From: Actinomycetota bacterium
GTDB taxonomy: Bacteria; Actinomycetota; Thermoleophilia; Solirubrobacterales; 70-9
Direction: 5' to 3'
DNA length: 37,251 nt
Assembly: GCA_018268675.1 (NCBI GenBank)
Contig: JAFDWB010000034.1
Location: forward strand, 1-37,251
Shown: positions 3,283 to 36,115 of the stretch, piece after piece
How the letters are laid out: each line of letters opens with the position of its first letter
Numbering within the stretch: position 1 is the stretch's first letter
The notes under the pieces: model-generated
Seen by the model: the letters and a program-made list of their open reading frames with translations, nothing else
Database searches by the model: none
What the model was told of the DNA's origin: nothing
Program-made: the position numbers and the translations under genes

Positions 3283-4220
3283 TGCCGGCGCGCCGCGCCA
3301 GGTGCCGTCGCAGCGAGTCGAGGACCGCGCCGGGTTCGCGATCCAGGCGCGGCCCGGTGACCCTGGTGGTCTCGATCCCGGCGTGGAGGAGCTCGTCGTC
3401 CCTGACCCGGTCTTCCTCGAAGGAGAGGCGGGAGCCGTGGGTCCCGTAGACGTCCAGTTCCACCCCGAAGCCCTCCTCCTCCCAGAAGGCGTCGATCTCA
3501 TGGCCGGCGACGAAGCGGTTCATCGACGGCAGAGGGAGCCCGGCCTCGCGCACGACCTGCAGGAAGCGACGCTCGAGGCCCGAGCGGGTGAAGGCCGGCG
3601 TCTCCCGGTAGAGGTCGAGCGCGGCGCGGAGCTTCGGCGCGCCCGGGTGGTCCGGGCACCGGGCGAGGACCCGGCGGATCGGCCCAAGGTCGAATACCTG
3701 CAGGTCCGACGCCCGCTCGAGCACCCGCTGCACCGTGCGGCGCTCCCCCGTCGCCGCCAGATCGAGGTAGGTCCGGGCCAGGGAGGTGACCGGGATCCCG
3801 TCCCGGACCGCCCGTTCGTCGGCCCGCAGCACCGAGCAGTGGACGACGTAAGGTCGCCGTGAGCGGCGCGGCTTGGGCGTCGTCACCTCGATCGGCCGCG
3901 GCCGATACCGGAGCAGGTCCCAGACCCAGGCCGCCGCTCGATGGCTGGCGACGATCGGCTGGTGCCCCTTTGACCACCCGCGCCGGCGCCGCCGCCAACA
4001 CCGCCGCCATGCACCACCCCTCCCAGGTCAGATCCTCGTGCCCGACCGCGTAGACCCCGCGGTAGACGCGGAGCAACCGTCCCGACCTCTCGGAGTCCGA
4101 GATCCACATTCGCGCGTAATCCAGGCTTGCCAATTGCCGGGCCGAGATGACACCGTGCTGCCTGGTCGCCAGCGCGGCCAACCGGTCATGTGCCCGTACC
4201 CTTCGACGCTTGTCTTCCAT
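3275..4220 (-). pseudogene. AbiEi antitoxin-like/DUF559-type protein, frameshifted
   Basis: Two overlapping frames make one recognisable protein of about 315 aa. The first (ATG 4220) gives the winged-helix part typical of AbiEi-like proteins: QHGVISARQLASLD, then LLRVYRGVYAVGH. It then slips at the AAAGGGG run (plus-strand 3965-3971). The second frame resumes with VASHRAAAWVWDLLRYRP and runs to the stop at 3275. It ends in an endonuclease-like C-terminal domain (HEIDAFWEEEGFGVELDVYG, about 100 residues before the end). One extra base in the run explains the break. It may be a true mutation or a read error. No toxin partner lies beside it. The family is common as solitary genes in actinobacteria. 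The start codon sits in the loop of a 33-bp palindrome. Confidence 0.75.
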
Positions 4221-4236
4221 ACGAAGACAAGCGTCG
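4204..4236. repeat. 33-bp perfect palindrome, copy 1
   Basis: Arms CGACGCTTGTCTTC (4204-4217) and its exact complement (4223-4236) enclose the loop CATAC. The same 33 bp, inverted, recurs at 35846-35878 inside birA. The identity extends to 36 bp with three flanking G. The ATG of the AbiEi-like gene (4218-4220, minus) lies in the loop and its next codons in the stem. Confidence 0.9.
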
Positions 4237-11745: not shown

Positions 11746-12674
11746 GCACCACCGCCACCACCGCCGTGTCCGAGCGTGACATCACCCCGGGCCGCGGGTC
11801 GCTGAGCGCCGAGACCGGGCCCGCCCGCGCCTGGCGCTGGCTGCGCGAGCACGCAGTGAACATCGCCGCGGTCCTGGTCGTGATCTACCTGCTTATCCCG
11901 ATCGCGGTGATCTTCATCTTCTCCTTCAACAACCCGGCCGGCCGTTACAACTTCACCTGGGTCGGCTTCACCTTGTCCCACTGGTCGCACCCGTTCGCCA
12001 ACACCGAACTCACCGAAGCGATGCTCACCAGCATCAGGCTGGCGCTGCTGGCGACGGTGGTCTCGACCATCGTCGGCACGATGATGGCGATCGCCCTCGT
12101 CCGCCACAAATTCGTCGGGCGGCGGATCGCCAACTTCCTGATCGTGATCCCGATGGCGACCCCCGAGGTCGTGATGGGGGCCTCGCTGCTCTCCTTCTTC
12201 CTCGTCCTCGGCACTCCGGCGCTCGGCTTCACCACGTTGCTTATCGCCCACGTGATGTTTTGCATCAGCTTCGTCGTGGTGGTCGTCCGCTCAAGGCTGA
12301 TCGGCTTCGACCGCAGCCTCGAGGAGGCGGCCAAAGACCTCGGCGCGGGCCCCTTCACCACCTTCCGCCTGATCACCTTCCCGCTCATCCTGCCGGGCAT
12401 CTTCGGCGCCGCGATGCTCGCCTTCGCGCTCTCGATCGACGACTTCGTCATCTCCAACTTCAACTCCGGGACGACGGTCACCTTCCCGCTCTACATCTTC
12501 GGCGCCGCCCAGCGCGGGATCCCGGTCGAAGTCTACGTAGTGGCGATGATCCTCTTCTTCGTCACCGTGGCCGCGATGGGCTTCGCCACCTGGCAGCAGC
12601 GCCGGGCCGAACGGATGACCAGCATCCGGCCCGAGCAGGAGGAGGCCGACATCGTCCTCCCCGGCATCGCGTAG
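11742..12674 (+). CDS. potC: Polyamine ABC transporter permease PotC-type
   Basis: 310 aa. A polar N-terminus of about 40 residues precedes a helix (VNIAAVLVVIYLLIPIAVIF) and further membrane segments. The EAA loop is EEAAKDLGAGPFTTFRLITF, and SIDDFVISNFNSG is typical of PotC. The start is GTG 11742, overlapping the potB stop (GTGA). It forms the membrane pore with PotB. The gene is followed by a 436-nt region of hairpins and then by the convergent FAD oxidoreductase. Confidence 0.92.
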   Translation: MSTTATTAVSERDITPGRGSLSAETGPARAWRWLREHAVNIAAVLVVIYLLIPIAVIFIFSFNNPAGRYNFTWVGFTLSHWSHPFANTELTEAMLTSIRLALLATVVSTIVGTMMAIALVRHKFVGRRIANFLIVIPMATPEVVMGASLLSFFLVLGTPALGFTTLLIAHVMFCISFVVVVVRSRLIGFDRSLEEAAKDLGAGPFTTFRLITFPLILPGIFGAAMLAFALSIDDFVISNFNSGTTVTFPLYIFGAAQRGIPVEVYVVAMILFFVTVAAMGFATWQQRRAERMTSIRPEQEEADIVLPGIA

Positions 12675-12683
12675 AAGGGGCCG

Positions 12684-12774
12684 GCGTGAGGGGTCGGGGA
12701 TGCCCCTTCACTCACGAACTGCGGGAGGTTCGCTCAGGGTCATCCCCGACCCGTCCCCTCGGGCCTGGGCGCCG
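12684..12774 (+). repeat. Framed intergenic hairpin element, copy 1 (short)
   Basis: Begins GCGTGAGGGG (12684-12693) and ends near CCGTCCCCTCGGGC (12751-12764), the same frames as copies at 17803, 21219 and 28909. Inside, GGGTCGGGGATG (12691-12702) pairs exactly with 12741-12752. It follows the potC stop directly and may act as its terminator. No T-run is present. Confidence 0.6.
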
Positions 12775-12792
12775 GGCAGGGGCGCCGCCGAA

Positions 12793-12910
12793 GCGAGTTC
12801 GCAGTTAGCTACACATGCGTGGATAAGTGCGAACTCACCGGGGCGCTCACACACCCGTCAGGTTGATGGGCCGAAAACCCGCCTATATGTCAGGGTTTCG
12901 GCCCATCAAC
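12793..12910. repeat. Two hairpins downstream of potC
   Basis: GAGTTCGCA (12795-12803) pairs with TGCGAACTC (12828-12836). The right side, TGCGAACTCACCGGGGCGC (12828-12846), recurs exactly at 21625-21643. A second hairpin pairs 12862-12880 (GTTGATGGGCCGAAAACCC) with 12893-12910, with one bulged A. Confidence 0.75.
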
Positions 12911-13016
12911 ATCGGGGGCATGGGGAAGGGTCACGGGACACGCGCGGTTGTCGGCGGGACGCGCACCGCCCCTTGGCATCTCCGTGGCGCCAGCGCCCCG
13001 GCCCGGTGTAGACCAA

Positions 13017-13070
13017 GGCGCGGCCATCCCCCTCATTAACCAGCCGAAGGATGAGGGGGATGGCCGCGCC
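13017..13070. terminator. 20-bp perfect hairpin after the FAD oxidoreductase gene
   Basis: GGCGCGGCCATCCCCCTCAT (13017-13036) is exactly complementary to 13051-13070 with a 14-nt loop. It lies 41 nt beyond the stop of the minus-strand oxidoreductase and probably terminates transcription, although no U-tract follows. Confidence 0.6.
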
Positions 13071-13110
13071 GCCCGGGCGGCAGCCGGCCTCGGGCGCCGG
13101 CCGACCCGTC

Positions 13111-17982: not shown

Positions 17983-18033
17983 GACGCCCCGGCCCGGCAG
18001 CAACCTTTATCGATGCTGCCGGGCCGGGGCGTC
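17983..18033. terminator. 20-bp perfect hairpin after the S51 peptidase gene
   Basis: GACGCCCCGGCCCGGCAGCA (17983-18002) and its exact complement (18014-18033) enclose an 11-nt loop. It is placed 53 nt after the stop of the minus-strand peptidase, like the hairpin at 13017-13070. It is a probable terminator without a U-tract. Confidence 0.6.
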
Positions 18034-21168: not shown

Positions 21169-21218
21169 GGACGCTGGAGGGTTCGGGGGGCGCGGCGGCC
21201 GTCCGAGGTGCGTCCTGG

Positions 21219-21758
21219 GCGTGAGGGGTTCGTCGGGGAGTGGGCACAGGGACGTTGCGAAGTCGGACTTCCGTGATCGTCCCGTGTGAGAGGAGCGTCG
21301 GGATCGAGGCCCCGGGACGCGCTGCAGCTCTCAGGCGGTTGAGGAAGACGGGAGGAACCGTGACGATCTCCCTCCCTCCTCGGCCGATCCTCTTCCGCTG
21401 TTCCTTATGGCCGATATACCGGCATAAGGAACAGCTGGACGGAGGGTGCCCTCCCGACGGGGGCGAGGTCCCCGGCCTTCCCGACGTCTTCGTCACGAGG
21501 TCCCACATCGGTGACGGACCCGTGGCGCTCCCGGGCGTCTTCCGTCACTCCCCCGCGACCTTCCTCCACGCCCGGCGTCCCGTCCCGGGTGAGTTCGCAC
21601 TTCACCGCGCCATCCGCGGGTTTCTGCGAACTCACCGGGGCGCGCGTCCCTGGTGCGGCGTGCCGACCCTTCCTCTCCCCACGGACCCGGCCGTCTCGGC
21701 CACGGCCACAGCCCGCCCGGGCCGTGGACGAGACGGCCCGTCCCTTACCTCGGGCGCC
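21219..21758 (+). repeat. Framed intergenic hairpin element, copy 3 (540 nt)
   Basis: Runs from GCGTGAGGGG to CTCGGGCGCC between the methyltransferase and the convergent MFS gene. It contains: GAAGTCGGACTTC inside 21251-21281; GAGGAAGACGGGAGGAA (21341-21357); a hairpin pairing 21397-21409 with 21423-21435; a diverged second copy of the GTCACGAGGTC motif (21491-21520); GTGAGTTCGCA (21589-21599) pairing with 21625-21635; and a 19-bp stem, 21689-21707 with 21720-21738, with one mismatch. The first, second, fourth and last blocks recur in order in copy 4. I see no credible gene in it. Confidence 0.75.
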
Positions 21759-28833: not shown

Positions 28834-28857
28834 ACGCGCCCGTCCGAGATGCGTCCC

Positions 28858-28905
28858 GGGCGCCTCATGGCGGTCCTGGCAGGCTGTGACCGCCATGAGG
28901 CGCCC
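28858..28905. repeat. 18-bp perfect hairpin, absent from the matching site in copy 3
   Basis: GGGCGCCTCATGGCGGTC (28858-28875) pairs with 28888-28905 with a 12-nt loop. An outer CGTCC/GGACG pair continues past one mismatch. The flanks GTCCGAGATGCGTCC and GTGAGGGG match 21201-21228, where this hairpin is missing. Confidence 0.75.
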
Positions 28906-28908
28906 AGG

Positions 28909-29236
28909 ACGTGAGGGGTCCGTGGGGGAGCGGGCACAGGGACGTCACGAAGTCGGACTTCCGTGACGGTCTCGGGGCGGAAAGGAGGCCACGGACGGCG
29001 GCGAAGGGGCGCCTGTGGAGCCTTACTCGCGTATAGAGCGAGTTTCTCTCCACAGCAAAGCCCTGACCAATGGGAAGGCATGAGGAAGACGGGAGGAAGG
29101 GTGGAGTTCCCGACGTCTCCGTGACGAGGTCGGACTTCGGTGACGGTCCCTCCACCCCTTTCATACCCGGCCCTCTCGCCACGGCCACAGCCAGCCCGGG
29201 CCGTGGCGAGGAGGGCCCGTCCCTTTCTCGGGCGCC
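28909..29236 (+). repeat. Framed intergenic hairpin element, copy 4 (328 nt)
   Basis: From ACGTGAGGGG to CTCGGGCGCC, between the aldehyde dehydrogenase and ccmA. Contains the motif around GAAGTCGGACTTC (28941-28971), a two-part hairpin (29013-29020 with 29048-29055, inner 29025-29030 with 29038-29043), GAGGAAGACGGGAGGAA (29082-29098), a second motif copy with GAGGTCGGACTTC (29121-29148) and a terminal stem 29169-29186 with 29199-29217 (one bulged base). The order of shared blocks is the same as in copy 3. No gene is seen. Confidence 0.75.
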
Positions 29237-35356: not shown

Positions 35357-36115
35357 GTGGAGCTGCGCGCGACGTTCGGCTCGCCGCACCGTCACTTCCG
35401 TCGCGTCGGGTCGACGAACACGGTCGCGCGTGAGCTCGCCGCGACGGGGGCGCCGCACGGGACCGTCGTCACCGCGGCCGAGCAGACGGCGGGCCGGGGA
35501 CGGCAGGGGCGCACCTGGACCGCGCCGCCCGGGGCCGCCCTTCTCTACTCGGCCGTGCTCCGGCCGCTGGAGCCGCGGCACGCGGTGCTGCCGCTCGCCG
35601 TCTCCCTCGCCGTCTGCGAGGTCGCCGAGCAGCTGCGACCGGGGATCGAGTGCAAGGTGAAGTGGCCGAACGACGTCCACCTCGACGGCCGCAAGCTGGC
35701 CGGCATCCTGATCGAGTCGCGCCCCCAGGACGGCTGGGCGGTCATCGGCGTCGGCCTGAACCTCACCATCGCCGCCGACGAGTTCCCCCCCGAGCTCCGC
35801 GACCGCGCCACCTCCCTATGGCCTCGCGCCGACGAGGCGCGGCCCCGACGCTTGTCTTCGTATGGAAGACAAGCGTCGGTGGGGGCGGCGCGGGTGGCGC
35901 TCGACGAGCGGCTCGAGGCGTGGCTGGGTGCCGAGGCCGCGACAGTGCTCGACGCGTGGCGCACGCGAGACGCGCTGCGGGGGCGCGAGGTGAGCTGGGA
36001 CCGGGGGAGCGGCGTCGCCGACGGGGTCGACGAGCGCGGGCACCTACTCGTCCGACTCGGCGATGGCGACCGGATCGCCCTCGGTGCCGGCGATGTTCAT
36101 CTGAGCGGCGTCTGA
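35357..36115 (+). CDS. birA: Biotin-[acetyl-CoA-carboxylase] ligase, group I, with in-frame palindrome
   Basis: 252 aa. Attaches biotin to carboxylase carrier domains via biotinyl-AMP. Visible: STNTVARELAATG, TAGRGRQGRTWTAPPG (adenylation loop), KWPNDVHLDGRKLAGILIES and VIGVGLNLTI. There is no N-terminal DNA-binding domain, so it cannot act as the biotin repressor. Codons for RRLSSYGRQAS (plus-strand 35846-35878) are a complete copy of the 33-bp palindrome seen at 4204. Its length of 11 codons keeps the frame. GTG start 2 nt after the preceding stop. The 3' end overlaps the convergent gene by 72 nt. Confidence 0.9.
   Translation: MELRATFGSPHRHFRRVGSTNTVARELAATGAPHGTVVTAAEQTAGRGRQGRTWTAPPGAALLYSAVLRPLEPRHAVLPLAVSLAVCEVAEQLRPGIECKVKWPNDVHLDGRKLAGILIESRPQDGWAVIGVGLNLTIAADEFPPELRDRATSLWPRADEARPRRLSSYGRQASVGAARVALDERLEAWLGAEAATVLDAWRTRDALRGREVSWDRGSGVADGVDERGHLLVRLGDGDRIALGAGDVHLSGV
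35846..35878. repeat. 33-bp perfect palindrome, copy 2, inside birA
   Basis: CGACGCTTGTCTTC (35846-35859), loop GTATG, and the exact complement (35865-35878). It is identical to 4204-4236 when inverted, and flanking GGG on the minus strand is also shared. It falls in the linker between the BirA catalytic domain and the C-terminal SH3-like part. Confidence 0.9.

Follow-up and report, generated by a model that had tools for sequence, protein, structure and literature searches.

The closest known kinds of repeat are the BOX elements and the mosaics of REP sequences called BIMEs, and the repeat described here differs from both. BOX elements of Streptococcus pneumoniae and S. suis (PMC3049150) are composite repeats whose left and right end modules are fixed and whose internal modules are optional; they are intergenic, form stem-loops, number about a hundred copies per genome, and cluster with or insert into other small repeats. 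The present repeat is like them in these respects. It differs in being GC-rich, in carrying at most five differing stem modules in fixed order instead of tandem boxB units, in end hairpins that share one inverted loop, and in a hairpin, H1, that some copies have most likely lost by microhomology deletion. The comparison is one of architecture, not of sequence homology to boxA, boxB or boxC. REP, BIME and REPIN sequences with their RAYT transposases (PMC3116915; PMC2817692) are likewise dispersed extragenic palindromes arranged in mosaics and inverted doublets, but the genus studied here is without Y1_Tnp (0/12 genomes), and its repeat has far longer stems and no GTAG tag by eye. CGTC-tagged palindromic repeats, according to PMC3733652, are also palindromic and dispersed, with no dedicated transposase reported there, and have stems of 8-9 bp and loops of 4-5 nt beside the tag; H1 too starts with CGTC, but it has 24-nt arms and a conserved 12-nt loop, and its CGTC is paired. 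The sponge RHE (PMC2800124) and a mobile DNA family of yeast mitochondria (PMC4478555) are described as hairpin-type repeats of intergenic DNA that are mobile and turn over between relatives, but they are organellar. Literature searches for the present repeat returned no description, a statement limited to those searches, and nothing was found under the MAG names SZAS-9, SZAS-15 and RYN_247. To our knowledge, no ordered multi-hairpin architecture exists among organellar hairpin elements.

The window (the whole stretch analysed, 37,251 nt, contig JAFDWB010000034.1 of assembly GCA_018268675.1, from an uncultivated Actinomycetota bacterium) contains two copies of one modular, non-coding, multi-hairpin interspersed intergenic repeat, both read on the forward strand. 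The labels E1, B, C, D and H1-H6 were coined in the present analysis. Copy B (28836-29225; E1-H1-B-H2a-C-D-H4b) is situated between the stop codon of an aldehyde dehydrogenase (ALDH) gene and an ABC ATPase gene. Its left-end module E1 (GCGCCCGTCCGAGATGCGTCC, 28836-28858) stands directly past the stop codon and is followed by hairpin H1 (28852-28911, 24-nt arms, loop CTGGCAGGCTGT), core linker B (28908-28974, including the short palindrome GTCACGAAGTCGGACTTCCGTGAC) and the H2 slot (29008-29080), which is filled with a hairpin of type H2a and includes 29013-29055. Linkers C and D are then joined directly, forming an empty H3 slot (GGAAGGGTGGAG/TTCCCGACGTC, 29081-29150), and the copy closes with the right-end hairpin H4b (29162-29225), in which the H1 loop is inverted, and then GTCCCTT. 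Copy A (21194-21746; E1-B-C-H3-D-H5-H4a) is without H1. Its H1-less junction GTCCTGGGCG/TGAGGGG (21201-21228) fits the deletion of 49 nt, with a microhomology of 3 nt. Reading the letters further, a collapsed remnant of hairpin type H2b is probably also present (GACGCGCTGCAGCTCTCAGG, 21315-21335), followed by hairpin H3 (CTGTTCCTTATG..CATAAGGAACAG, 21397-21435) in a slot of its own that separates linkers C and D, linker D (21478-21521), hairpin H5 with its tail (GGTGAGTTCGCA..TGCGAACTCACC, 21585-21680) and the right-end hairpin H4a (21684-21746).

DNA searches of the own genome, with one window copy per query, gave 80 and 102 match rows, and parsing of the fetched contig pieces with module probes resolved at least 97 clusters, a lower bound because the best 40 of 155 and the best 40 of 192 candidates were scored. 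The assembly (95 contigs; completeness 96.65, contamination 3.13) has many contigs that start or stop within the element (C55, C59, C60, C63, C65, C67, C74, C78, C80, C84, C86 and others); the repeat therefore breaks the assembly, and its copy number is underestimated. Modules follow the fixed order E1, H1, linker B, H2 (types a, b and c), linker C, H3, linker D, H5, H4, the hairpins being present or absent independently between conserved linkers, which is the BOX-type layout of end modules with optional internal modules. Among the 97 clusters, many of them cut at contig ends, the modules occur as follows: B 75, C 75, E1 62, H4 61, D 60, H1 57, H2 56, H3 56 and H5 28. Order was flagged in 10 clusters, mostly on account of neighbouring extra hairpins or doubled linkers. 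The modularity suggested in an earlier sequence-only reading of the window is borne out by these clusters, with modules varying independently in a fixed order and hairpins also occurring solo. H1 and H4 carry the same loop in opposite orientation, and a covariance model of this loop-hairpin returned 149 rows in the own genome, duplicates from both strands counted. Rfam gave 0 matches in the window at gathering thresholds, and the idea that H1 belongs to a known RNA gene family was rejected on that ground.

Further hairpins were observed beside this family. A second multi-hairpin mosaic family occupies 12670-13080 (hairpins at 12678, 12786, 12862 and 13017) and has 107 match rows genome-wide. 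A CGACGCTTGTCTTC hairpin with a 5-nt loop occurs twice, at 4204-4236 and 35845-35879, and hairpins like it recur in element flanks on contigs C11, C53, C74 and C86. In the SZAS-9 MAG, two elements (L185 and L208) have tandem left-end units (CGGACGGCC..) and right-end units (GGCGCCCGGGAAGGG..), which suggests that element ends may grow by tandem duplication.

Outside the own genome, similar DNA was restricted to the genus: the DNA search matched 7 of 41 genomes, the own one included, and the loop-hairpin model was positive in 6 of 61, all of them within the genus in either case. Model-positive genus genomes (n=6) measure 3.8-4.7 Mb and model-negative ones (n=6) 2.4-3.4 Mb. The other positive species share 88-91% identity with the aldehyde dehydrogenase of the window, against 81-84% for negative species with a match, so the element probably marks one clade of this Solirubrobacterales-like genus. 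Three MAGs are the named genomes among the matches listed for the exact H4 pattern (80 of 114 stretches), and the relatives found by pattern were Solirubrobacterales or Actinomycetota MAGs, again among the matches listed. Plasmid and phage collections contained no similar DNA at 1e-5 in distant mode.

Orthologous sites were compared across the genus (genomes denoted G), a search for such sites among the loci retrieved yielding 7 rows for 4 elements. Between the ALDH and ABC genes, the element is present in the own genome and missing from G003, where the gap is short. G011 and G008 have a single hairpin of other sequence there, G006 an end remnant with a different hairpin, and G009 nearly abutting genes; another gene lies between in G001, G004 and G010, and the site in G007 is cut by a contig end. 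At the 20350-21168 gene, short gaps were found in G003 and G007, a single hairpin resembling that at window position 12678 in G011, and several hairpins of the H3, H5 and H6 kinds in G006. The site in G008 is cut by a contig end, and the element is absent here from G009, G002, G004, G010, G001 and G005, several of which have different neighbours. It is thus missing from orthologous sites in G003 (at both loci), G007 and G009, and G006, G008 and G011 carry other hairpins. Two further loci have near-empty sites in relatives (C91:168862 and C76:10301), and at two more (on C60 and C67) relatives have longer stretches. Whole elements and some hairpins come and go between sister species, as the empty, single-hairpin and full-element states at sister sites indicate for the six sites compared, two of them in depth. 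The check proposed in the sequence-only reading, a search for empty and filled sites in sister genomes, was therefore answered positively: empty and differently filled sites were found for both window loci.

About a dozen copies that are nearly identical form a subfamily with unrelated flanks, and G006 holds dozens of H1 matches with one identical score. If the element were a miniature transposon belonging to a known family (REP/RAYT, IS200/IS605-type, or a MITE of a resident IS), this near-identical subfamily amid unrelated flanks and the inverted end hairpins with one loop would be accounted for; AGGGACG/CGTCCCT ends recur and are partly inverted, and the outermost ends differ between copies. 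This origin is possible but doubtful. Y1_Tnp (PF01797) was absent from 12/12 genus genomes, while 5/14 controls were positive, and mobilisation by RAYT was rejected on this basis. No clear target-site duplication was evident when flanks were read by eye and the two window sites were set against relatives. Mobilisation by a reverse transcriptase was not supported either: RVT_1 (PF00078) was detected in 2/12 genus genomes (G008 and G010) and not in the own genome (G000). Live mobility was not seen, and no mobilising enzyme was found in a search that covered the families Y1_Tnp and RVT_1.

The element is located mainly at gene 3' ends. Gene context was assigned by a custom GC3 rule, which left 34 of the 97 clusters without a score for both neighbours; the 63 scorable clusters comprise 27 convergent, 27 tandem and 9 divergent neighbour pairs, and in 43 of the 63 the left neighbour gene runs into the element. 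Such a distribution would be expected if the hairpins were transcription terminators or stabilisers of mRNA 3' ends under selection, their presence and absence reflecting terminator turnover. Tolerance of insertions at 3' ends would leave the same pattern, however, and a terminator function is unlikely considering that the stems lack a following T-run, that the same sequences are dispersed as repeats, and that the ALDH site in some relatives has no hairpin or has abutting genes.

The hairpin at 28858-28905 itself is perfect, as the sequence-only reading had stated, with an 18-bp stem and a 12-nt loop; its stem extends outward into 24-nt arms (96%) at 28852-28911, and its DNA fold has an energy of -32.1 kcal/mol (z = -8.2). 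Perfect stems of at least 18 bp occur three times in the window and were absent from 20 Markov resamplings. A separate perfect hairpin of 20 bp with an 11-nt loop (GACGCCCCGGCCCGGCAGCA) was observed at 17983-18033. Covariation of the stems is strong. Across 26 hairpins hand-picked for good stems, two-sided changes were found at 18 of 25 pairs, with 96.6% of cells paired, as against at most 6 two-sided pairs and 46% pairing in slid controls. A wider scan of 75 + 75 distinct hairpins gave about 92% Watson-Crick pairing. An initial impression that wobble pairs are almost absent came from the hand-picked stems and was rejected, the wider scans containing both G-T and A-C mismatches. On the strand with the ACAGCC loop, G-T exceeded A-C mismatches by 51 to 5 over all H1 and H4 hairpins of the own genome (21 to 5 when distinct); in relatives the ratio was 23 to 14 (12 to 10 distinct), a weak excess or none.

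Template switching is reported to homogenise hairpin arms and invert spacers (PMC8604942) and to produce compensatory change (PMC8794818). Events of both kinds were seen here: at C53:5710-5766, one of 52 filled sites, the H1 loop is exactly inverted between intact arms, and at C82:281308 a compensated change lies inside a young subfamily. Together with the near-perfect arms and their two-sided changes, these events and the published precedents could also be taken to mean that hairpins are created de novo, and stems replaced, by template switching during DNA replication. This is quite unlikely, because local switching would not place the same loop and stem families at tens of loci in several species; it accounts for maintenance, not for dispersal. 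Template switching between arms is thus a likely, if unproven, maintenance process for the stems, and the suggestion in the sequence-only reading that hairpins move or arise in this way survives only as upkeep of arm complementarity; nothing here shows switching to create or move hairpins.

The H1 slot is best explained by loss. Around 21201-21228 the flanks are the same as those of the 28858-28905 hairpin, without the hairpin, and the core downstream of H1 aligns between the two window copies over 75 nt at 85%. The flanks had been described as matching and joined directly; the match holds, but the joint is not direct. The outer stem base GTCC(T)GGG is retained on one side, which points to a deletion within the foot of the hairpin. 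An H1-slot row was obtained for 66 of the 97 clusters (31 gave none), comprising 52 filled sites, 13 short sites and one misread row (C65:19-275) that was dropped. The short sites fall into 12 junction classes by script and 11 by eye, C75 and C76:63020 being alike, and the junction class of window 21201 is common to C59 only. On templates partly composed by hand, every short site fits a deletion of 45-69 nt whose junction has 1-6 nt of microhomology; the mean microhomology was about 2.6, against 0.64 across all breakpoint pairs in one template, the script value of 6 for C75 being a tie artefact that was taken as 2 for this mean. Loci from related species gave 59 distinct E1+H1 sequences and 1 H1-less sequence, the window's own row (L292) excluded. 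The diverse microhomology junctions and the filled state in related species argue that H1 is most likely ancestral and has been lost repeatedly through microhomology deletion, a polarity based on related species and junction diversity rather than on a dated tree. Two pairs of H1-less sites have a common junction, so some losses may go back to a common ancestor or may have reached new sites when an H1-less element was copied. The H1-less state as an ancestral empty site was rejected on the junctions. Clean insertion of H1 into the filled copies, that at 28858 among them, starting from an ancestral H1-less element, would explain why both flanks match in the two window copies and would parallel behaviour that the H3 slot does show, but it is very improbable and appears already largely refuted by junction diversity, given 11-12 distinct microhomology junctions in place of one empty site and H1 filled in 52/65 scorable clusters and nearly all copies of other species. 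Of the earlier statement that the hairpin was gained or lost cleanly, loss is thus retained, as repeated microhomology deletion, and clean gain is not, given the diversity of the H1-less junctions.

H3, unlike H1, behaves as a clean module. Its slot is empty at 13 short C-to-D sites with one common junction, GTGACG/TTCCCGACG, apart from point changes, and in filled copies such as that at 21201 a unit of about 112 nt sits exactly at this junction. In a larger C-to-D class (106-108 nt) the start of linker D is lost as well. H3 has 52 occurrences per strand in the own genome by pattern and, in a comparison by eye, stands without a nearby match to the H1/H4 model at 14 of the listed places, so H3 also occurs solo. 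The hairpins at 21397-21435 and 29013-29055 had been placed at comparable positions. Their slots, H3 and H2 respectively, are distinct, and some other copies have a hairpin in each; that they are alternative fillings of one slot was rejected, as both slots are filled in C82:115111-115613.

Overall, a modular repeat in which H1 is lost by deletion and internal modules are gained or excised as units is considered the best explanation, and with good confidence. It builds on family membership, copy number, module order, junction diversity, and empty and filled orthologous sites. H1 would be the founding end-module of the element. In the 21201 copy, some 49 nt lying between short direct repeats at the hairpin foot would have been deleted, and H1 with them, presumably when replication slipped or single strands annealed over the folded palindrome; at least 10 other copies would have lost H1 independently in the same way. 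Internal modules such as H3 would enter or leave whole, at a single fixed junction, and also occur solo. Between losses, stems would be kept complementary by two-sided changes, plausibly through inter-arm template switching, selection on the folded strand, or both, and the element would be moved by some activity acting in trans. A bolder proposal, which we offer tentatively and think unlikely to hold as a whole, is that the genus has its own mobile-DNA system made of hairpins only: ends would be defined by the shared loop CCTGGCAGGCTGT, not by stem sequence, internal hairpins would be traded as modules or solo, and a trans-acting enzyme recognising the folded strand through its loop would bring about the movement. 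That G-T mismatches outnumber A-C on the ACAGCC-loop strand of the own genome would be in keeping with one given strand folding at each end, although the imbalance is weak in relatives.

The host genomes thus contain a mobile-like repeat family that breaks their assemblies and has no mobiliser among the families searched. With tens of copies per genome in several species, its H1 slot would be a record of many independent palindrome losses and its H3 slot one of clean module gain or excision, so that palindrome deletion, inter-arm correction and hairpin mobility may be measured side by side in one natural series.
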